DNA of 53,044 nt from a virus. Every line of letters starts with the position of its first letter. Positions within the stretch are counted from its first letter, which is position 1. Under the pieces are notes generated by a model. The model was not told where the DNA came from. It saw only the letters and a program-made list of their open reading frames with translations, and made no database searches. Location: positions 1 to 53,044 of IMG/VR virus record IMGVR_UViG_3300023109_001242; one strand, given 5' to 3'. Shown piece by piece: positions 22,792-51,309 of the stretch. The translations under genes and the position numbers were made by a program.

Positions 22792-23244
22792 ATGACTGGA
22801 TTAAATATACACAACCTTTCCCCATTCACTGTGGGGTTTGATCGAATCATCGATCGCTTAGTAGAAATAGAAAACCACCCAGCCAGAAATGGCGCACAAG
22901 GCTTTCCGCCTTATAACATCAAAGTAGACAAAGGCGAACTTAATTTTACAATTGAGCTTGCACTTGCTGGTCTAGATGAATCTGATGTCGATATCGAAGT
23001 TAAAGAGAATCAACTCTCTATTAGCTCTACATATGAGACAGTAGAAGACACTGGGCAATATGTTCATAAGGGTATTTCTAAAAGGAAATTTACGCGAAGC
23101 TTTACTTTAGCAGACGACATCGAAGTTCTTGGAGCTAGCTTTAAGAATGGTCTTTTGACTATAGGACTCGAGCGTATTATTCCAGAGGAAAAGAGACCTC
23201 AAAAAATTAAAATTGATAATAAGAAGGAGTTCTTAACAGAGTAA
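22792..23244 (+). CDS. hsp20: Hsp20 small heat-shock protein
   Basis: 150 residues with TAGGAG before the ATG. The alpha-crystallin domain covers about 38-140: YNIKVDKGELNFTIELALAGLDESDVDI, ISKRKFTRSFTLADDI, then the family signature ASFKNGLLTIGL followed by the Ile-Pro-rich IIPEEKRPQKI. It is an ATP-independent holdase. It belongs to the IbpA-like group found repeatedly in marine T4-like phages, where it may help capsid or tail protein folding. Confidence 0.92.
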   Translation: MTGLNIHNLSPFTVGFDRIIDRLVEIENHPARNGAQGFPPYNIKVDKGELNFTIELALAGLDESDVDIEVKENQLSISSTYETVEDTGQYVHKGISKRKFTRSFTLADDIEVLGASFKNGLLTIGLERIIPEEKRPQKIKIDNKKEFLTE

Positions 23245-23292: not shown

Positions 23293-23820
23293 ATGACACA
23301 AGAATACAGACAAGAATTAGTACCACAAGAAAACTTTAAAACTCGCCAACGCGTAGACGATCAATTTGAATGGGTAAACTTAACTACCGATGATTTATTC
23401 AAAGGTAAAAGAGTAGTAGCATTCTCATTACCTGGTGCATTCACACCAACATGTTCGAATATGCAAGTACCAGGGTATCAAGCCCTACACGAGGATTTTA
23501 CGAACTTGGGTATTGATAAAATTTATTGTATATCATGTAATGACGCATTTGTAATGAATGCATGGGCAGAAGATCAAAGAGCACCCAACATCGAGTTTAT
23601 ACCAGATGGATCCTGTAATTTTACAAAGAATATGGGTATGCTTGTTGCTAAAGACAATCTTGGTTTTGGCATGAGATCTTGGCGTTATGCGATGATCGTT
23701 AATGATGGAGTTATTGAACAGATGTTTGTAGAGCCTGGAATGTGTGATGACTACGAGGAAGATCCCTACGGAGAAACGTCACCTGAAAATCTCTTAGAAT
23801 ATCTAAGACATACTTTATAA
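23293..23820 (+). CDS. peroxiredoxin (Prx5-type)
   Basis: 175 residues. The active site PGAFTPTCS has the peroxidatic Cys54; SLPGAFTPTC and QVPGYQALHEDF are characteristic of the Prx5/AhpE-like group, as is NMGMLVAKDNLGFGMRSWRYAMIV. It reduces peroxides using thiols, perhaps with the phage glutaredoxin at 11094. It is an auxiliary gene; oxidative stress protection during infection is the likely benefit. A terminator follows directly. Confidence 0.9.
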   Translation: MTQEYRQELVPQENFKTRQRVDDQFEWVNLTTDDLFKGKRVVAFSLPGAFTPTCSNMQVPGYQALHEDFTNLGIDKIYCISCNDAFVMNAWAEDQRAPNIEFIPDGSCNFTKNMGMLVAKDNLGFGMRSWRYAMIVNDGVIEQMFVEPGMCDDYEEDPYGETSPENLLEYLRHTL

Positions 23821-23826
23821 TTGATT

Positions 23827-23851
23827 AGGGATTCTTAGGAGTCCCTTTTTT
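23827..23851 (+). terminator. Rho-independent terminator
   Basis: AGGGATT (23827-23833) pairs with AGTCCCT (23840-23846) with one G-T wobble, loop CTTAGG, followed by six T. It closes the rightward operon between two convergent blocks. Confidence 0.8.
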
Positions 23852-25718
23852 AATTAGCTGCCGCAACAAAGACACCACCAGACATGCTGCCTTGATTATA
23901 TGAATTCACAAGAGAGCTTACGTTTTGAGCACCACCAATCGAATTTGTTATATAGTTGTTAACAGGAGCTGCGTTACTGATTGTTGTTATTGATGGTAGT
24001 CCACCTAAACCATAATTATTATTCTTAACACTGGCCAATGCCATTTCAGTAAAGTTTTTATATTGCGAAGCTTCAGGATATGCTTTAATAAACGCATTCC
24101 ATTTCGTATCTCGTGCTTCTTTGATTCTTACAGCTTCGTTTTGTCCTCTAATTACCTCACGGTGATCGCGAGTTACTATATTACCTTGATACCTAGTTAC
24201 ACCCATGTCGGCAGCATTCATTTGCATCTGTTCTCTACCATATTTGACAGTAGCATCCATTTGCGATTGATTTAAAGCAATATTTTCATCAAGCTCTTTA
24301 ATTTCGTCGAGATACAGTTGTTCAAGCTCTAAATCCGTCCTTCTTCTAGCTTTGCCTTTGGTCTGCTTCAATTTTAAGAAGTTCGCTTTACCTTCTGGTG
24401 TAAGCAAGTGAGCTTTTGCTGCTTTATCTTCGGTAATTGATTCTTGTTCTTCAGCTAATGATTCTAAGAAAGTTTCTTTAAATCGTTTTCTATCTTCGGC
24501 TATTTTCTTTTTAAGTTTTCTTATTTGTTTATCTATTTCTTGAGTTGGAGCACCTAGTCTAATAGCTTCTTCTTGCATCGTATACAATTCTTCTAATTTT
24601 TTATTTGAATCAATAACGGCTGCAGCTACTTTTTCTATTTTATTTGGAAGCATATCATCGTCTTTAAGATAATCGATAGTCTTTAAAGCTCCACCGATTA
24701 TAAACGCTGCTACTCCACCTGCTGCCATTACAAGTGGGCCACCAGGTATAAACAACGCAGCTATGGTTGCAGCGCCAGCTAAACCACCTATTTGCATACC
24801 AATTGGTATTTCAGTTCTAGCAATATCTTCACTACTCATATCTCTGCCACGAATGAAGTTCATAACAGGATCTATTGCAGAATATAATCCACTAAATACT
24901 AGGCCAGCAATACCACCTCTTACTAATTTTTTAGTAAGACCAGCTTTGGTCATTCCAGCACCAACATCTTCAACGCCAGGAGTAAACATCTTTTTAAGAG
25001 CAGAAAATGTTAACGCTTGAGCAGCAACACTGGCTGCCGCAGAACCAACAGCAGCAGTACCTTTAACTGCAGCGTAACCAAGACCTAACTGAGCGATAGG
25101 TTGAGCTAAGTATTTTATGTTTGTTATAAACCCATCCCAATCCGTCATACTGAGTTTGCCCAATGCTGTACCTGCATTTGCAAACCCTTCAAACAAAGTT
25201 GGCATATTAACGTCTTTTCCGAAAAGCTTAGGTGCTAACGCATCAATAGCACCAGCTAATACCTCATAACCAATGGCTCCAACTATACCAAAGAATAAGG
25301 CTTTCTTTAAAACATTAAACGTACTTTTTAAAGTACTTGCAAATATACCATCTTTGCCGAATATTTTAAAATCTTTCTTATCTCTTTCTTTGGAGGCTTT
25401 TAAGTCTTGAGCTAGTCTTGCAGTGTCAAGCTTCTGTTTATTTTTAGTATTGGCTGCCTCTTGCGCTATGTATTCTTTTTGGTCTTTTTCGTTGAGATCA
25501 TCAAGTTTAAATTGTCTTTCATCTTGCAGTTCTTGAAGTTTTGTTTGGTTCTGAATAGTACCAGTAATACCTTCCATACTACCAGACATAGCTTTAAACG
25601 CGTCGGAGAATTTACCCAACTCAACTTTCACAGACTTAATAGAGTTCGTACCCGAATTTCTAAATAAGAGTCCTTCCGCCTTTAATCGTTCTACTATAGC
25701 TTTAGTGTCTGGTGACAT
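23850..25718 (-). CDS. 29: gp29-type tape measure protein
   Basis: 622 residues (T4 gp29 is 590). Layout is that of a tail tape measure: helical N-terminus, charged coiled-coil segments (about 60-115 and 375-480), and two hydrophobic stretches (about 138-165 and 295-345) of the kind that insert into or cross the host membrane. It ends in a glycine/asparagine-rich tail. It follows the gp26 and small-ORF pair, the standard position for tape measures. AGGATAATTAA precedes the ATG at 25718. Assignment is from position and composition more than motif. Confidence 0.7.
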   Translation of the reverse strand: MSPDTKAIVERLKAEGLLFRNSGTNSIKSVKVELGKFSDAFKAMSGSMEGITGTIQNQTKLQELQDERQFKLDDLNEKDQKEYIAQEAANTKNKQKLDTARLAQDLKASKERDKKDFKIFGKDGIFASTLKSTFNVLKKALFFGIVGAIGYEVLAGAIDALAPKLFGKDVNMPTLFEGFANAGTALGKLSMTDWDGFITNIKYLAQPIAQLGLGYAAVKGTAAVGSAAASVAAQALTFSALKKMFTPGVEDVGAGMTKAGLTKKLVRGGIAGLVFSGLYSAIDPVMNFIRGRDMSSEDIARTEIPIGMQIGGLAGAATIAALFIPGGPLVMAAGGVAAFIIGGALKTIDYLKDDDMLPNKIEKVAAAVIDSNKKLEELYTMQEEAIRLGAPTQEIDKQIRKLKKKIAEDRKRFKETFLESLAEEQESITEDKAAKAHLLTPEGKANFLKLKQTKGKARRRTDLELEQLYLDEIKELDENIALNQSQMDATVKYGREQMQMNAADMGVTRYQGNIVTRDHREVIRGQNEAVRIKEARDTKWNAFIKAYPEASQYKNFTEMALASVKNNNYGLGGLPSITTISNAAPVNNYITNSIGGAQNVSSLVNSYNQGSMSGGVFVAAAN

Positions 25719-25722
25719 TTAA

Positions 25723-25905
25723 TTATCCTGTTTGCGCATCTCGCGCTTTATCGTTTTGTTCTTTTATATATTCAACTAACATTTGAAAATATAAATCTCT
25801 TTCATAAGGTAGCATACTCTCAATTTCACTTATACTATATTTATGGTGCTGTGCCATACTAAAAATCATTTCATAATAATTTTGTAGACTGATATGGCTC
25901 AGCAC
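25723..25905 (-). CDS. small ORF between gp26 and tape measure, likely frameshift extension
   Basis: 60 residues if read from the GTG at 25905, but there is no ribosome site at a useful distance, and the same frame is open upstream across the poly-T run of gene 26. It contains YYEMIFSMAQHHKYSISEIE and LPYERDLYFQMLVEYI, a helical pattern seen in small proteins at this position in T4-like phages (gp51/gp28 region) and reminiscent of the T part of gpG/gpGT chaperones. Most likely it is translated as the C-terminal part of a gp26 fusion. Confidence 0.6.
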   Translation of the reverse strand: MLSHISLQNYYEMIFSMAQHHKYSISEIESMLPYERDLYFQMLVEYIKEQNDKARDAQTG

Positions 25906-26606
25906 TAGGAAAAAAAACTTTGCATTCCCTCTACTACAAACGTCTTTTCAGTTCCAGCTGAATTAGTATATTCAACCTCATGTCTTAATTTTGGCATCGT
26001 TTCAAAGAAGCTTGTAATACCTTTAATTGATTTAGCTTCTAATGAATCCATAAATTCGTCAATGTCTTCTCTACTATATTCTTTAAAGTAGTGTACCTCG
26101 TCCTCAGATGCGACGTAGTCAATACAAGACGTTAACATTATATAATCTGTTAATGGATCTTCAGGGTCGAGTGTACTCAACCTAGCAAACTCATCAATGG
26201 TAGGATATCTTAAGAACAATGTGTACTCATCATTTATTGAGATTTCGTTAGTATGTTCTGGATCTCTTACTAACTGTACTTTATCAATGTCAATCTCAAG
26301 ATCATGACGCTCTTCAGTATCCTCGTCTCGTATTGAAAAGTTAATCATATTGTTAACTGATCGAGCTCTGATATAAAGTATTACGTACTCAAGATCAAAC
26401 ATTGCAAGGTCAGCAACGTCAGTATCAATTAAGCAGTTGTTAACGACTTGTTTTGCTGCTAATATCTGTGATGTTGCTTCATCTGATTCTTGAGCTACTA
26501 AAAGAATCTTTTCTTCTTTTACAGTAAATGGTCTGTATTTTAATCTTTCACCGTTTGAAGGTAGTGTTAATTCCATAATTGGAATATCAATTTTTGGCAA
26601 TGCCAT
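25905..26606 (-). CDS. 26: gp26-type baseplate hub / tail assembly protein
   Basis: 233 residues. The N-terminal VMELTLPSNG-like segment (here IMELTLPSNGERLKYRPFTVKEEKIL) is the signature of the T4 baseplate protein family PF12322 (T4 gp26). Later DFEEY-type acidic segments and RYPTIDEFARL are also shared. T4 gp26 works in assembly of the baseplate hub. It starts with AGGAG 7 nt before the ATG. Its last codons are a T-run that allows -1 shift into the next ORF. Confidence 0.8.
   Translation of the reverse strand: MALPKIDIPIMELTLPSNGERLKYRPFTVKEEKILLVAQESDEATSQILAAKQVVNNCLIDTDVADLAMFDLEYVILYIRARSVNNMINFSIRDEDTEERHDLEIDIDKVQLVRDPEHTNEISINDEYTLFLRYPTIDEFARLSTLDPEDPLTDYIMLTSCIDYVASEDEVHYFKEYSREDIDEFMDSLEAKSIKGITSFFETMPKLRHEVEYTNSAGTEKTFVVEGMQSFFS
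25910..25917 (-). other. candidate -1 ribosomal frameshift site
   Basis: On the minus strand a run of eight T occurs at codons AGT TTT TTT TCC TAG, the last five codons of gene 26 including its stop. A slip on T TTT TTT moves the ribosome into the frame of the 60-residue ORF with no stop between. The fused product would be 294 residues. Confidence 0.55.
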
Positions 26607-26630: not shown

Positions 26631-27485
26631 CTATGCTGTCGGGCCCAAACCTTTTGGTTCTTTGGGTGGCTTTGATGAAGCCTGACCGGACGAAGCTTTA
26701 TCACCAAAGAAACTATCTAGATTATCGAATGAATTACGAACTCTAGTTAATTTATTAATGGCATCTTGTATGCTTGTCGGTTTACCCGATTTAATTGTTT
26801 GTTTTGTGATGTCAACGAAGCTTGCTAATTCTGAAAGTGACTCTAGTAATCCACCTTTTAATCTACGAGAAGGATTAGCCTCTCTATCGCCAGAGTAATG
26901 TATTTTATCATAAGCAAAGGTAACGTCTACTGTTAAAAATTGATCGTTCGTTGCCCAGTCGAGTGTCATATCTGCTATTTGATAAGGCCAACAATTATCT
27001 AAAACTACTTCGTAAAATCTGTCGTTGTGTCCTATTGTTTCTGTAGAGTAATGTTTAATTGATAATCTACAAGCGTATTCGTCTTTATATCCAAGTTCGT
27101 AAGGTAACATTCCACCCATTCCGTCAGGATCAATAGCACCATAGATTCCATCCTTAGTACTATAATTCATAACTCTTTGAATCCAATTATGAAAGAAAGA
27201 TAACATCTCATGATTGCTGTCAAGCATAAAGGTTAAAGTAATAGGTGTAGATGACATACTTAATGGGAAGACAGTTGGCAGTTGAGCAACGTTTGTCATT
27301 GAAGCGGTTTCAATACCAATACCAGGGAATGATGCTCTACTACAGAAGAATGAAAATTCTGTTGTTGGTTCAATATTAGAGTTAGTCTCTTTGTATTTTC
27401 CAAGAGTTACTTCAAATAAATTAGCTCTGGCAGGACCACCATACTTATCCATTGTCGTCTTAAATTTACTAATACTAAATGTCAT
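26631..27485 (-). CDS. 54: gp54-like baseplate tail-tube initiator
   Basis: 284 residues (T4 gp54 is 320). ANLFEVTLGK, a middle SSTPITLTFMLDSN.EMLSFFHNWIQRVM and the later FLTVDVTFAYDKI match the tube-fold pattern of gp54 (T4 FDVTFAYRVM). The C-terminus is proline- and lysine-rich and looks disordered. gp54 caps the baseplate and nucleates tail tube polymerisation with gp48. The ribosome site AAGGA is 8 nt before the ATG. Confidence 0.7.
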   Translation of the reverse strand: MTFSISKFKTTMDKYGGPARANLFEVTLGKYKETNSNIEPTTEFSFFCSRASFPGIGIETASMTNVAQLPTVFPLSMSSTPITLTFMLDSNHEMLSFFHNWIQRVMNYSTKDGIYGAIDPDGMGGMLPYELGYKDEYACRLSIKHYSTETIGHNDRFYEVVLDNCWPYQIADMTLDWATNDQFLTVDVTFAYDKIHYSGDREANPSRRLKGGLLESLSELASFVDITKQTIKSGKPTSIQDAINKLTRVRNSFDNLDSFFGDKASSGQASSKPPKEPKGLGPTA

Positions 27486-28181: not shown

Positions 28182-28643
28182 TTATTTACCTGCTATTCCA
28201 TCTCTTTCGGTCATAATAACAAAACTCCACCCCCGATCTGCACAATACGATCGAGCTGCTTTCCATTTTGCACTATTAATACCATAATTCTTAACCTCAT
28301 TTAGATATCTTCTTGATACTCTACCTGTAGGTGTTTTATTCTTATTAGCAACATTTGGAGGTAATGTTTGGCCATAAGGTTTAATCTCTATCATAATGGT
28401 TTGAGTTTTACCCTTACCATCATGTTTATGGACAACTACATCTGGGAAGTATCTATGCATCCTTCCATCTATCGGAGATCTATATGGAACAATAACTTCT
28501 TCTGATTGCCACCATATAACGTCTTTATGTTTGTCAAGCCAAGAAAATACGTTTCTTTCCCACCAAGACCGATAAATAATCCTAGTTGGATCACCTTTAT
28601 ACTTATGTGGGTGTGTTGGCTTAAACTTACCTCTATATGCCAT
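28182..28643 (-). CDS. 4: gp4 head completion protein
   Basis: 153 residues from the ATG at 28643 (MAYRGKFKPTHPHKYKGDP), which aligns with the T4 gp4 start MAYSGKWVPKNISKYRGDP. A longer frame from a TTG at 28685 adds 14 unsupported residues. Later blocks match too: IIYRSWWERNVFSWLDKH, YFPDVVVH, IMIEIKPY and SAKWKAARSYCADRGW. gp4 completes the head for tail joining and has a nuclease-like fold (E..D/EIK pattern). Confidence 0.92.
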   Translation of the reverse strand: MAYRGKFKPTHPHKYKGDPTRIIYRSWWERNVFSWLDKHKDVIWWQSEEVIVPYRSPIDGRMHRYFPDVVVHKHDGKGKTQTIMIEIKPYGQTLPPNVANKNKTPTGRVSRRYLNEVKNYGINSAKWKAARSYCADRGWSFVIMTERDGIAGK

Positions 28644-28662
28644 AACTAATTTGTCAATCCTG

Positions 28663-28670
28663 TATAAATA
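28663..28670 (+). promoter_or_regulatory. T4-type late promoter for the rightward baseplate genes
   Basis: TATAAATA, exact consensus, 39 nt before the gp48 ATG. Transcription from it would cross the leftward motif at 28690-28698. Confidence 0.7.
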
Positions 28671-28689
28671 ATCTATAATGTCCAATTAC

Positions 28690-45837: not shown

Positions 45838-48800
45838 ATGCCTATTAACACAAATCTCAACCAATCGCCTTATTTTGACGATTACGATCAAGATAAGCAG
45901 TTTAATCGCATTTTGTTCAAGCCCGGTTTTGCGGTTCAAGCTCGTGAGCTAACACAGTTACAGTCTATACTTCAAAATCAGGTTCAGCAATTTGGTGATA
46001 ATATCTTTAAAGAAGGTAGTATTGTCAAAGGTTGCACGTTTACTAATATTGACGATTTAAAATACGTTAAATTAAAAGAAGGTACAGTTACCACTTTTAA
46101 TCCAACATTATATATTAGTAAAGTTGTTATCGAACCTGTAGCTGGTGGCCAAGAACAAGAAGTCGATAATGTTTATGTAATGACTGGACAAACTTCAGGA
46201 CTAAGAGCACAAATTATTTCAGCTGTTCGTGGTTCTCAAGGTACTTCAGCTGCTACCGCGCCTAACAATACATTCTTTATTAAATATTTAAATACGACTC
46301 CTGGATATTCACAGTTTAGTCAAGGTGAGAAGTTTGATATTACTTTAACTAAGTATAAGCGTGGAACAAATGAGCCTTTAAGTACTTCAACACCAGTTAT
46401 TTTACCGACAGTTGGTACAGATTCTGTAACTGTTTGGAATGACAGCGATGCAGTTGGTAACTCATTCGGTATTGAATCATCTCCTGGTGTGATATTCCAA
46501 AAAGGTCATTTCCTATACGCTTCAGAACAAATATTAATTGTAGAAAATTATAATAGAATACCTGCTGATAAATCAGTTGGTTTCCATATTGCAGAAAATA
46601 CTGTTAACGCACTTACAGATGATAGTTTATACGATAATGCTTTCGGATCTAAGAATCAAAATGCACCTGGTGCAGACCGATTACAATTAGTACCTGCTTT
46701 AACTGTTAAAACTCCTGTACAAGCAAAAGAAGATGCAGACTTCTTCTCACTCGTTCGTTATCAAAACGGAAACGCAGTGACCTTAAGAGATGTATCTCAG
46801 TATAATGCTATCGGCGAAGAGCTAGCAAGAAGAACATACGAAGAGTCGGGTAACTATATACTCGAAGAATTCCCAGTACGAAGCGATGACAGAATACCTC
46901 AAGGTGAAGCTACAAGTAAAGTCCATGCATTAGTTGGTCAAGGTACTGCTTATGTTAAAGGTTTCCGTGTAGAAAATAGTGGAGAGCGATCATTTGAAAT
47001 TGATCCAATAACAACCACTGATATCGTTAATAATCAATCTATTGGTACTGACTATGGTCATTACGTTAACATCACTAGTATTACTGGTCATGTTGATATA
47101 GATTATACTCCTGTTACTTTACAAGACTCAGGTGGTAGTTCAATCGGTCAAGCGATCGCTGTTAACGTAACAAGAAACAGACTATACTTATCTGCTCTAT
47201 CAATGACTGGTAGTATTGCAGATCTTGCTAAAGTTTCTGATGGTAATGGTACAATACAAGTTGATAGCGTATTGCAAGAAGCAGCTAAAAAGTCGTTAAT
47301 ATTTGATAGCGGACTGATCAGCACGTTTGATATGACTGATACTTTAATTCCTGTTAGAGCAAAAGAAGAAGTAACTCACACTGGTGGAGCAATTACAATT
47401 ACTGCTAATCCTGGTGAAGATTTTGTTTGTCAAAATACAGTAAACGATATATTAGTTGTAGAAAAGACAAGTAATGTATTTAGAGAAGCTTCAGCAGTTA
47501 CTGTTACTAATAACAATTCTGAATTAAATATTACAATTGACGCTGGTGCAGCATCTCCGGTTTATGTTTATTACAACAAACGATTAGTTGGTTCTACTGG
47601 TGTAGATTCTTATAATAAGATTGTACGAGAGCCTTGGGTCAAAGTTAGTTATGCTGGTAACGCCAATGCAGTCAATTCAAAATATAGCTTAGGTTTCCCA
47701 GACGTATTTGGTATTACAGAAATTAAAACTATAGGTACAGGTCTTGGTGGAATTGACGAAGACTTTACAAACAGCTTTAGATTAAAGACAAACCAAAAAG
47801 ATCAGTTCTATGATATCTCTTATATGGAGCATATCCCAGGTAGACCTAAACCACTCGATGGCACTCATAACTTATATGTTAAATTAAAAGTATTTCAGAT
47901 CTCTCCTTCCACTGGTAGCTACTTCTTTAATATTAATAGTTATCCGAATACCCTTGATAGAAATGACATACCGGTACATACAAGTGACTCTGGTAGACGT
48001 TTTAACCTTCGTGACTGTGTAGATTTCAGGCCTCATTGTGACAAAGATACTGCAGTTGGTTATGGCGATGATACTGTTATATTAGCAGGACCAATTACAA
48101 ACGCAGTTGGTTTCTTAACTGCAACGTTCTCTGATTTCGGTGCACCTTTAATACCTGCTACTCAAGACGGAATCACAACAGACATCGAACATTACCTTGC
48201 GCGTATTGATACTATTGTCTGTGACTCTTATGGTCAGATTAAAATAGTTAAAGGTAAGGAATCAAAGATACCTGCACCTGTTCAAATCGAAAGCGATAAA
48301 CTTGCAATTGCTAATGTAACAATTCCTGGTTTCCCTGCTTTATCATCTCGTCAAGCAGACACACAAAGAAAACGTGAATACGCTATTAGTATGGTTCCAA
48401 CAGGAATTAAAAATTACACGATGAAAGATCTTCATTCTTTAGAGAAGAAGATTGACAACATGGCTTATTACATCTCGTTAAATCAATTAGAATCTGACAC
48501 ACAGAATTTAACAGTACTTGATGAGAACGGATTGTCAAGATTTAAGAATGGTTTTGTTGTAGATCCATTTAATGATTTACGTTTAGCAGATGTTGGTAAC
48601 CCAGAGTTTAGAGCAGCCGTTCCATTCGCGCAGAAAATATTAACACCAGAAGTTAATACATTCCCAATTGATCTTAAATATAAGACAAGCGCTGGAGCAA
48701 CAATCTTCCCAAGCACAGCTAAGGGTCAGGTTGCAACCTTGACAAGAGATTCAAATGTTGATATAATAGACCAACCATACGCTACTGATTTTAGAAACTG

Positions 48801-51309
48801 TGTAAGTAACTTCTACAAATATGTTGGTGAAGGTATTATCTCACCCCCATACGATGCTGCTTACGATACTACTACAAACCCAGTTAGTTTAGATATTGAC
48901 CTTACAAGTTACTTCGAAGATTTTGTTGATAATATTCAACGATTCCTTCCAATGACTGATACATCAATAAGACAGATTGACTTCGAACGTACAGGTCGAC
49001 GTGGAGCTGGTTTTGCTACAGATCAAATTACAACAAGACAACAAACTATTGAAGTCGGTGAAAATCTTATTAATACTCCAGTTGGTGATTTTGTATCTAA
49101 CTTTGCATTTGAACCATTTATGTCTTCTCGTGATATTAAAATTTATATGTCAGGATTAAGACCTGATACTGATCATTACTTCTTCTTTGATGGAGTTGAT
49201 GTTAATGCTCATATTATTAAAGGTACACCTACTGCCAATTTAGTAGAAGATATTGAAAGATATGGCGATAAAGGTATTACTTCAGTTAAGACTGATTCAA
49301 GCGGTGTTATAAGAGCAATATTCCACTTACCTGCTGAAACATTCTATGTCGGAGATCGAATTTTAGAAATTGTTGACGTTGACCAATATTCAAGTATTGA
49401 CAGTGGTGCAACATCTAAAGGGTTTATAACATACCGTGCTTATAACTTCTCTGTTGAGAAATCATCTCTTACAACTTCAACACGTGCACCAACGTTTGAT
49501 ATTAATACAACAACGACATTCAGAAATGTAACACGTCGTGTCGGTGGCCGTGATCCTATTGCTCAAACATTCTTTATTAAGAAAGGTATGGGACTAGGGT
49601 CTAACAGTGTTTATCTATCTAATATTGATGTATTCTTTAAACGTGTTTCTGCAGAAAACGGTATTACTCTACAAGTACGTGAAGTTATTAACGGTTTCCC
49701 AACAAACCAAGTAGTTCCATTCTCTAAGGTACACAAATTACCAAGTCAATTAACTTCATCTGTTAGTGATGACGCTTCAGTAGCAACAACATTTGCTTTT
49801 GATGCACCAATACGACTTGATGTTGAAAAAGAGTATTGTTTAGTATTACAGCCTGATGCTTCAGATCCTAATTATTTAGTATTCATATCTAAAGTTGGTG
49901 GCCTTGACCTAACACCTGGCGCATCTCAAGGAACTGCGATCGTGCAGGATTGGGGTGACGGTGTATTATTCAGTTCAACAAACAATAGCGCATGGCAGTC
50001 TTACCAAGACGAAGATATGAAGTTTACTCTACGTAGACATAACTTCAGTGCTTCTACTGGTTCTGTTACATTAACTAATAACGATAACGAGTTCTTAACA
50101 TTAAATAATATTACACCTTCTTCTGTTTCTAACTACTTTATTCCTGGTGAAGCTATTTACCAAAATAAAGCTTTGACTGGTTCCACAAACGCAACTGGCG
50201 GTGTTGTTTTAAATAGTACAACAATAACGCAGTCAAATGCTGATCAGAGTTATGTTATCGGTGACTTTATTAAAATTACTGGCGCAGGTAATAAAATTCA
50301 AATTGTTGAGATTGTTAATATTTCAGATGCAAATACAATTATTATTAAATCACCATGGCCTTATCCTACGGAACCAGCAGCTGCAATTATACCTGTAGTA
50401 AAAGGTGATATCTCAAACCACGATAAAAGAAATCCAAGTAAATTGCAACTCGAAAAGAGTTCTGCAACGGCTGTAAAACAATTTACAGTTACTACATACG
50501 ATTCTGGTGGTGCTGCAGAAAATCCTATTACTGGTGCTGATAGTAAGGTTGTTGGAAGTATTGTAAGCGTAGATAACATTAACCTCAGTTATGTTCAGCC
50601 AATGATTATGAGAGCAAATGATTCAGTATCGGCCACAACACTGGAAGGTACACTTGTTTCTCCAACTGACCTAAATACTACATATAATACTACATTAGCG
50701 TTTAACGATAATAATCACTTCTCTAATCAAGGCGTGATAGTTTATAGTAAGTCTAATGATCCAACTGGTGCTAAAGCTTTTGACTTTACTGTGAATCTAA
50801 CAAATGGAAGTAATGTAACTTCAACACCATTTGTTGATATTGAAACATCCAAGTTAATTGGTTATCAATATACTTTAAATTCAGATCCTGCAGAATCAAG
50901 TAATTATATTTCTAGAGTTATAGAACTTGCTAGTGATTTAGATGCTGAAGATCTTAATGTTATATTAACGGGTTACAGACCAGTCAATTCAGATATTAAA
51001 GTATACGTTAAAGCTCAAAATGCGTTTGACTCATCAGACTTAGATTCCATAGGTTGGACTGAGTTAGAAATGTTTAGAGGTGTGGGTACATTCTCATCTA
51101 CTTCTAATATTAAAGATTACAGAGAGTTCCAATACAAGATACCTGCAACTGCTAAAGTTGGTGGTCTACCTAGTGGAGCTCATACATATACTTCAACTAA
51201 TGGTACATTTAAAGAGTTTAGGAAGTTTAAGATTAAAATTGCTTTAACTTCAACTAATATTCATAATGCGCCTACACTAAGAGACTATAGAGCTATAGCT
51301 CTAACATAG
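45838..51309 (+). CDS. giant DUF4815 baseplate/fibre structural protein
   Basis: 1823 residues. The opening INTNLNQSPYFDDYDQDK, FNRILFKPGFAVQARELTQL and QSILQNQVQQFGDNIFKEG is the DUF4815 (PF16075) signature, found in large structural proteins of marine T4-like phages. The rest is strand-rich with no enzyme motif visible. It is the largest gene in the window and probably occupies the gp10-like wedge-to-fibre position. An exact sigma70 promoter match occurs inside it at 48739-48767. Confidence 0.85.
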   Translation: MPINTNLNQSPYFDDYDQDKQFNRILFKPGFAVQARELTQLQSILQNQVQQFGDNIFKEGSIVKGCTFTNIDDLKYVKLKEGTVTTFNPTLYISKVVIEPVAGGQEQEVDNVYVMTGQTSGLRAQIISAVRGSQGTSAATAPNNTFFIKYLNTTPGYSQFSQGEKFDITLTKYKRGTNEPLSTSTPVILPTVGTDSVTVWNDSDAVGNSFGIESSPGVIFQKGHFLYASEQILIVENYNRIPADKSVGFHIAENTVNALTDDSLYDNAFGSKNQNAPGADRLQLVPALTVKTPVQAKEDADFFSLVRYQNGNAVTLRDVSQYNAIGEELARRTYEESGNYILEEFPVRSDDRIPQGEATSKVHALVGQGTAYVKGFRVENSGERSFEIDPITTTDIVNNQSIGTDYGHYVNITSITGHVDIDYTPVTLQDSGGSSIGQAIAVNVTRNRLYLSALSMTGSIADLAKVSDGNGTIQVDSVLQEAAKKSLIFDSGLISTFDMTDTLIPVRAKEEVTHTGGAITITANPGEDFVCQNTVNDILVVEKTSNVFREASAVTVTNNNSELNITIDAGAASPVYVYYNKRLVGSTGVDSYNKIVREPWVKVSYAGNANAVNSKYSLGFPDVFGITEIKTIGTGLGGIDEDFTNSFRLKTNQKDQFYDISYMEHIPGRPKPLDGTHNLYVKLKVFQISPSTGSYFFNINSYPNTLDRNDIPVHTSDSGRRFNLRDCVDFRPHCDKDTAVGYGDDTVILAGPITNAVGFLTATFSDFGAPLIPATQDGITTDIEHYLARIDTIVCDSYGQIKIVKGKESKIPAPVQIESDKLAIANVTIPGFPALSSRQADTQRKREYAISMVPTGIKNYTMKDLHSLEKKIDNMAYYISLNQLESDTQNLTVLDENGLSRFKNGFVVDPFNDLRLADVGNPEFRAAVPFAQKILTPEVNTFPIDLKYKTSAGATIFPSTAKGQVATLTRDSNVDIIDQPYATDFRNCVSNFYKYVGEGIISPPYDAAYDTTTNPVSLDIDLTSYFEDFVDNIQRFLPMTDTSIRQIDFERTGRRGAGFATDQITTRQQTIEVGENLINTPVGDFVSNFAFEPFMSSRDIKIYMSGLRPDTDHYFFFDGVDVNAHIIKGTPTANLVEDIERYGDKGITSVKTDSSGVIRAIFHLPAETFYVGDRILEIVDVDQYSSIDSGATSKGFITYRAYNFSVEKSSLTTSTRAPTFDINTTTTFRNVTRRVGGRDPIAQTFFIKKGMGLGSNSVYLSNIDVFFKRVSAENGITLQVREVINGFPTNQVVPFSKVHKLPSQLTSSVSDDASVATTFAFDAPIRLDVEKEYCLVLQPDASDPNYLVFISKVGGLDLTPGASQGTAIVQDWGDGVLFSSTNNSAWQSYQDEDMKFTLRRHNFSASTGSVTLTNNDNEFLTLNNITPSSVSNYFIPGEAIYQNKALTGSTNATGGVVLNSTTITQSNADQSYVIGDFIKITGAGNKIQIVEIVNISDANTIIIKSPWPYPTEPAAAIIPVVKGDISNHDKRNPSKLQLEKSSATAVKQFTVTTYDSGGAAENPITGADSKVVGSIVSVDNINLSYVQPMIMRANDSVSATTLEGTLVSPTDLNTTYNTTLAFNDNNHFSNQGVIVYSKSNDPTGAKAFDFTVNLTNGSNVTSTPFVDIETSKLIGYQYTLNSDPAESSNYISRVIELASDLDAEDLNVILTGYRPVNSDIKVYVKAQNAFDSSDLDSIGWTELEMFRGVGTFSSTSNIKDYREFQYKIPATAKVGGLPSGAHTYTSTNGTFKEFRKFKIKIALTSTNIHNAPTLRDYRAIALT
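48739..48767 (+). promoter_or_regulatory. internal sigma70-type promoter match in the DUF4815 gene
   Basis: TTGACA at 48739-48744, 17-bp spacer, TATAAT at 48762-48767 with TGA before it. It is as good as the intergenic members but lies mid-gene, with no gene start nearby; could be fortuitous. Confidence 0.35.

Follow-up and report, generated by a model that had tools for sequence, protein, structure and literature searches.

The window analysed here is a stretch of 53,044 nucleotides of viral DNA (positions 1 to 53,044 of IMG/VR record IMGVR_UViG_3300023109_001242). On its minus strand lies a homologue of T4 gene 26, the end of which overlaps a 60-residue ORF in the -1 frame. The features considered in this work are, in the order of transcription:

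26631..27485, minus strand: tail tube protein, adjoining gene 26 upstream (PF23849, E=3.9e-12; phrog_45, E=2.2e-38)
25905..26606, minus strand: gene 26, predicted short form (TAC-N), 233 aa (Pfam T4_baseplate PF12322, E=1.4e-53; phrog_150, E=2.8e-60)
25927..25931, minus strand: Shine-Dalgarno-like GAGGG, 9 nt upstream of the heptamer
25911..25917, minus strand: candidate slippery heptamer T TTT TTT, in phase with gene 26 as T(25917) TTT(25916-25914) TTT(25913-25911)
25723..25917, minus strand: -1 frame extension (TAC-C, T4 gp51 C-terminal module), assigned by phrog_634, hhalign and protein alignment from the slip site
25893..25905, minus strand: 5' arm of the predicted stem, beginning 5 nt after the heptamer
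25846..25858, minus strand: 3' arm of the stem, 13 positions, with one A.A mismatch in the window phage
23850..25718, minus strand: putative tape measure protein, 622 aa, the next gene downstream, assigned by position and size

Gene 26 has a GGAG ribosome site before its ATG. Its product shares ~40% identity at best with the gp26 of named phages, and the window represents a distinct uncultured lineage. The 60-residue ORF aligns to phrog_634 (gp51, 'baseplate hub assembly catalyst') from position 59 of the model onward (E=2.8e-22), and a Pfam scan of this gp51 module returned no family. The gp26/gp51 pair sits between the tail tube gene, which is identified by family matches, and the tape measure gene, which is assigned only by position, length and relatives: the 622-aa protein resembles long ORFs near gp26 in relatives and gave no match among the Pfam and PHROG family models. 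Tail tube, gp26, gp51 and tape measure stand in the order of lambda genes V, G/T and H.

Several other genes of the window were recorded along the way. The opposite strand carries, immediately beyond the tape measure gene, an Hsp20-family protein (22792-23244, plus strand; PF00011, E=2.3e-18), adjoined by a peroxiredoxin-like protein (23293-23820, plus strand; Redoxin PF08534, E=3.6e-26) that seems unusual for a phage. A head-closure (gp4-like) protein (28182-28685, minus strand) matches both the TnsA-like endonuclease N-terminal domain (PF08722, E=1.6e-20) and phrog_218, and an 1823-aa protein (45838-51309, plus strand) matches phrog_358 and phrog_877, both of unknown function.

A candidate slip site at the end of gene 26

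On the minus strand gene 26 ends in ...GGA ATG CAA AGT TTT TTT TCC TAG TGC TGA, and the run of eight T that the first-pass annotation had pointed out contains the heptamer in phase with the gene. The same annotation had proposed that a -1 slip leads without a stop into the 60-residue ORF, which we can confirm: the -1 frame is open across the heptamer and for ~30 nt 5' of it, and the join is uninterrupted. A slip on T TTT TTT would give ...MQSFF|FLVLSHISLQNYY..., a predicted fusion of 294 aa composed of 232 gp26 residues, FL and the 60 residues of the ORF, in which the extension added after the slip is 62 residues long and gp51-like. The ORF itself runs from the GTG at 25905 to 25723 (60 codons). 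This GTG overlaps the gene 26 stop in the window phage (TAGTG) and was correctly said to be without a ribosome site, there being no Shine-Dalgarno (SD) motif at a usable distance.

Conservation of the heptamer in relatives

We gathered 178 loci, comprising 159 IMG/VR contigs, 18 annotated phage records and the window, and 177 of these were usable, one contig that ends inside gp26 having been left out. An in-phase T TTT TTY is present at the end of gp26 in 172 of the 177 usable loci, and in every contig of sufficient length the -1 frame leads on to a gp51-like ORF. The five loci without T TTT TTY differ from one another. Klebsiella phage JD18, of the T4 group, has a separate gp51; Vibrio phage K469 (L096) and Aeromonas phage phiA8-29 (L097) have no heptamer near the gp26 end; in contig L119 the gp26 frame is broken; and RHph_I34 has TTTTTTG in its place. 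K469 and phiA8-29 may make the long form in another way, or may use reinitiation. In K469 a small ORF in the -1 frame begins with the ATG of a TAATG overlap.

For statistical comparison we used 84 representatives with a T6 core and less than 70% identity. A codon-usage null for the terminal pattern gave a product probability of ~10^-35 over these 84, a nominal figure that treats as independent sequences which were selected for having the core and whose relatedness inflates such probabilities; the comparison with internal Phe-Phe pairs (see below) is the better control. Conservation of the T-run is far beyond chance. The first-pass annotation had named conservation of the T-run and of the frame offset as one check on its proposal, and the relatives keep both; of the three findings that it had said would refute the proposal, we found neither a changed frame relation, nor loss of the T-run beyond the loci listed above, nor an SD-served start.

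A joined coding sequence is annotated in none of the 18 relative records. For S-PM2, the predicted fusion junction is GLQSFFRISMFYNNLENYYR. The gp51 module is unannotated altogether in the records of ACG-2014d (L084), S-CAM4 (L100), LPCS28 (L094) and VH7D (L092), in each of which gp26 has the slip site.

RNA signals flanking the slip site

The predicted stem begins 5 nt after the heptamer. When the -1 frame was randomly recoded with synonymous codons, the folding energy of the native window sequence stood at z=-6.5, and mean z was -4.2 in the stem clade (38 representatives, picked after inspecting folds), -2.1 in the other 45 and ~0 in a control region. In a fixed register, and in a clade for which gp26 identity to the window was the sole criterion, 9.68 of the 13 stem positions are paired, compared with 7.35 (sd 0.20) in the synonymous-recoding null and 3.0-6.1 in slid registers. 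Five stem pairs have changed on both sides, for example from C-G to U-A and from A-U to U-A. The covariation score of the stem was reached by 1 of 500 shuffles and lies above all slid registers, while stem pair counts and pair-type counts were not clearly above the shuffles; only two of the five measures clearly exceed them.

RNAalifold found no consensus pairs on alignment A2, and the evidence for the stem is that of fixed-register counts, synonymous recoding and single-sequence folding. A search of Rfam gave nothing above gathering score, its chance miRNA-like matches reflecting the hairpin. Taken at the level of the nucleotide sequence, these results indicate that the stem is under selection beyond the protein it encodes. 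In the cyanophage relatives (S-PM2, L001 3205-3288; L099, L127, L148 and L149) the place of the stem is taken by other, shorter hairpins, that of S-PM2 having ~14 pairs, and it seems that the stimulatory structure was replaced in these phages and the heptamer kept.

Upstream of the heptamer, glutamate at the position of the GAGGG element is encoded by GAG in 35 of 51 cases, compared with 29% elsewhere (p=6e-9), and SD matches of at least 5 occur in 36% of sequences, compared with 19% in the synonymous null. The element is kept in part of the family and is absent from several clades. It lies 21 nt from the GTG of the small ORF, the wrong distance for initiation there, and it is likely to be a stimulator of slippage. 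Its placement fits that of the internal SD of Escherichia coli dnaX. The window indeed has the three-part layout of the dnaX type, with an SD-like element ~10 nt upstream and a stem-loop ~5 nt downstream of a homopolymeric heptamer. In contrast to the window, where the slip would give the longer product, the dnaX slip gives a shorter one, on the heptamer A AAA AAG and in an unrelated gene. The literature accessible to us, in which Vladimirov et al. 2022 is represented by papers that cite it, holds no description of the stem or of the SD-like element in this lineage.

Relation to T4 gp26 and gp51

In T4, genes 26 and 51 lie on opposite strands. Residues 1-201 of T4 gp51 form a full PF12322 domain (E=3.9e-52), and residues 200-242 align to the -1 ORF of the window (hhalign, E=5.3e-5). 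By these matches T4 gp51 appears as a gp26-type domain followed by the small-ORF module, which is the architecture of the fusion product with the junction at the same place. Equally, on the alignments, the small ORF to which other phages' annotations give the name gp51 corresponds only to the C-terminal module of T4 gp51. The window's pair fits the T4 gp26/gp51 family, with a short form that matches PF12322 and a predicted long form made of the PF12322 domain plus the gp51 C-terminal module. T4 gp26 is the counterpart of the window's short form, and T4 gp51 has the architecture of its frameshift product; T4 has two separate genes and needs no frameshift. The likeness to lambda gpG/gpGT drawn by the first-pass annotation gains support both from this natural fusion and from the order of tail tube, gp26, gp51 and tape measure.

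In order to compare folds, we used an AlphaFold2 model of gp26 (pLDDT 88.6), the alignment behind the model containing proteins of the window and the contig loci only. Among 350,542 PDB chains the best match was the HK97 tail assembly chaperone 2ob9, a weak match that is not significant (E=0.41, probability 0.72, TM 0.20 by query), so that the likeness of the gp26 model to a tail assembly chaperone is suggestive only. The -1 module is predicted to be helical, with gp51-type proteins as its best viral matches. Neither profile found a significant sequence match in the PDB.

Alternative explanations

Between the upstream stop and the conserved core, 37 of 83 representatives have no ATG, GTG or TTG in the second frame; 13 have GTG/TTG only, and in 33 an ATG precedes the core. 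None of the 83 has an SD-like 4-mer suitably spaced from the small-ORF start. The members with an ATG would suit an independent small gene, whose translation would depend on termination-reinitiation at the TAGTG overlap with no fusion being made. So would the GTG or ATG that, in the window and some relatives, overlaps the gp26 stop or stands 5 nt after the first base of that stop, and most GenBank records annotate the module as a gene of its own. Such a gene is harder to reconcile with the start-less members, with the conservation as protein of the codons between slip site and stop (FF[RY][LIV]xL[SC]H across the gp26 stop, that is, FF followed mostly by R or Y, then L/I/V, any residue, L, S/C and H), with the retention of the heptamer regardless, and with T4, where the module lies inside a longer protein. 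Because the start-less members have no start codon and yet conserve the peptide, they can, on this reading of their sequences, hardly make it except by frameshifting. A stand-alone small gene as the sole product is disfavoured by these start-less and SD-less representatives, and we regard it as improbable. In the window phage, whose TAGTG overlap supplies a start codon, a free small protein may be made besides the fusion.

Slippage of RNA polymerase on the T-run, rather than of the ribosome, could also give a -1 product, given that the window has eight T and that slippage on runs of nine A or T is described in bacteria (PMC5009743). In 101 of the 177 relatives, however, the run is T6 followed by C only, which is under the known slippage length; the site is moreover in codon phase and is followed by an RNA stem. 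With T6C in more than half of the relatives, transcriptional slippage was rejected, and we give it very little credence. Nor does the T-run appear to be a mere product of Phe-Phe codon usage or of homopolymer assembly error, with no recoding. Phe-Phe is invariant at the gp26 C-terminus and TTT makes up 71% of Phe codons, but only 4 of the 90 Phe-Phe pairs inside gp26 make up the heptamer, and in all 84 representatives the third base of the codon before the terminal pair is T, although the codon itself varies (AGT, GAT, TCT, AAT, ACT, GCT). Assembly error is ruled out, many independent genomes having one and the same frame relation. On the strength of the internal pairs we reject chance codon usage, and the probability that remains for either form of this explanation is close to nil.

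Discussion

In our assessment, gp26 and the gp26-51 fusion are very probably TAC-N/TAC-NC tail assembly chaperones, made by -1 frameshifting with the help of the stem and, probably, of GAGGG. The site, its frame, its conservation, the selection at the RNA level and the homology of the fusion to T4 gp51 were obtained directly. We infer slippage itself, its rate and the chaperone role as follows. Most ribosomes would stop at the gp26 TAG and release the short form (TAC-N), and a minority would shift back by one base on T TTT TTT, skip the stop and make the 294-aa long form (TAC-NC), aided by the stem 5 nt downstream and probably also by GAGGG upstream. If lambda gpG/gpGT are a guide, the tape measure protein would be coated by the short form, and the long form would bring tail tube subunits to it.

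A more elaborate possibility is that the three-part signal (SD-like element, U-rich heptamer and covarying 13-position stem, the 5' arm of which holds the gp51 start) sets a fixed ratio of gp26, fusion and free gp51 module made by reinitiation, the stem coordinating slip and reinitiation. We consider this unlikely. The preferred reading, in which frameshifting produces a short and a long chaperone, adds a further case to a kind already known. The first-pass annotation had supposed that such a slip was not described for T4-like gp26, and on this point it was out of date. Vladimirov, Gautam and Davidson (2022, Virology 566:9-15) reportedly found frameshifting to be conserved in several T4-like groups, with T4 using separate genes 26 and 51. 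Two papers cite this work: PMC12846349 refers to it for poly-T slippery sequences within T4-like TAC-N genes, and the PRFect paper (PMC10885494) for T4-like phages in which a short gene and a long fusion gene take the place of a frameshift. The window shares with that earlier work both the genes and the idea of the frameshift, and differs in belonging to a distinct uncultured lineage.

A 2016 review of recoding had listed T4 as an exception to the tail-gene frameshift among long-tailed phages, and describes for lambda gpG/gpGT how a -1 slip close to the first ORF's end, just ahead of the tape measure gene, gives short and long chaperone forms (PMC5009743). The window resembles lambda in the position of the slip, near the end of the first ORF and just before the tape measure gene; the resemblance drawn here is one of layout and not of sequence, and the window's slip sequence is U-rich with a downstream stem.

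Most of the sampled T4-like diversity (84 distinct relatives) keeps the frameshift site, and in T4 a gene of its own encodes the long form. In cyanophages and their relatives the annotated gp51 is probably not a free-standing gene, and several records leave the module unannotated. With the work presented here, a defined RNA stem is now available for testing.
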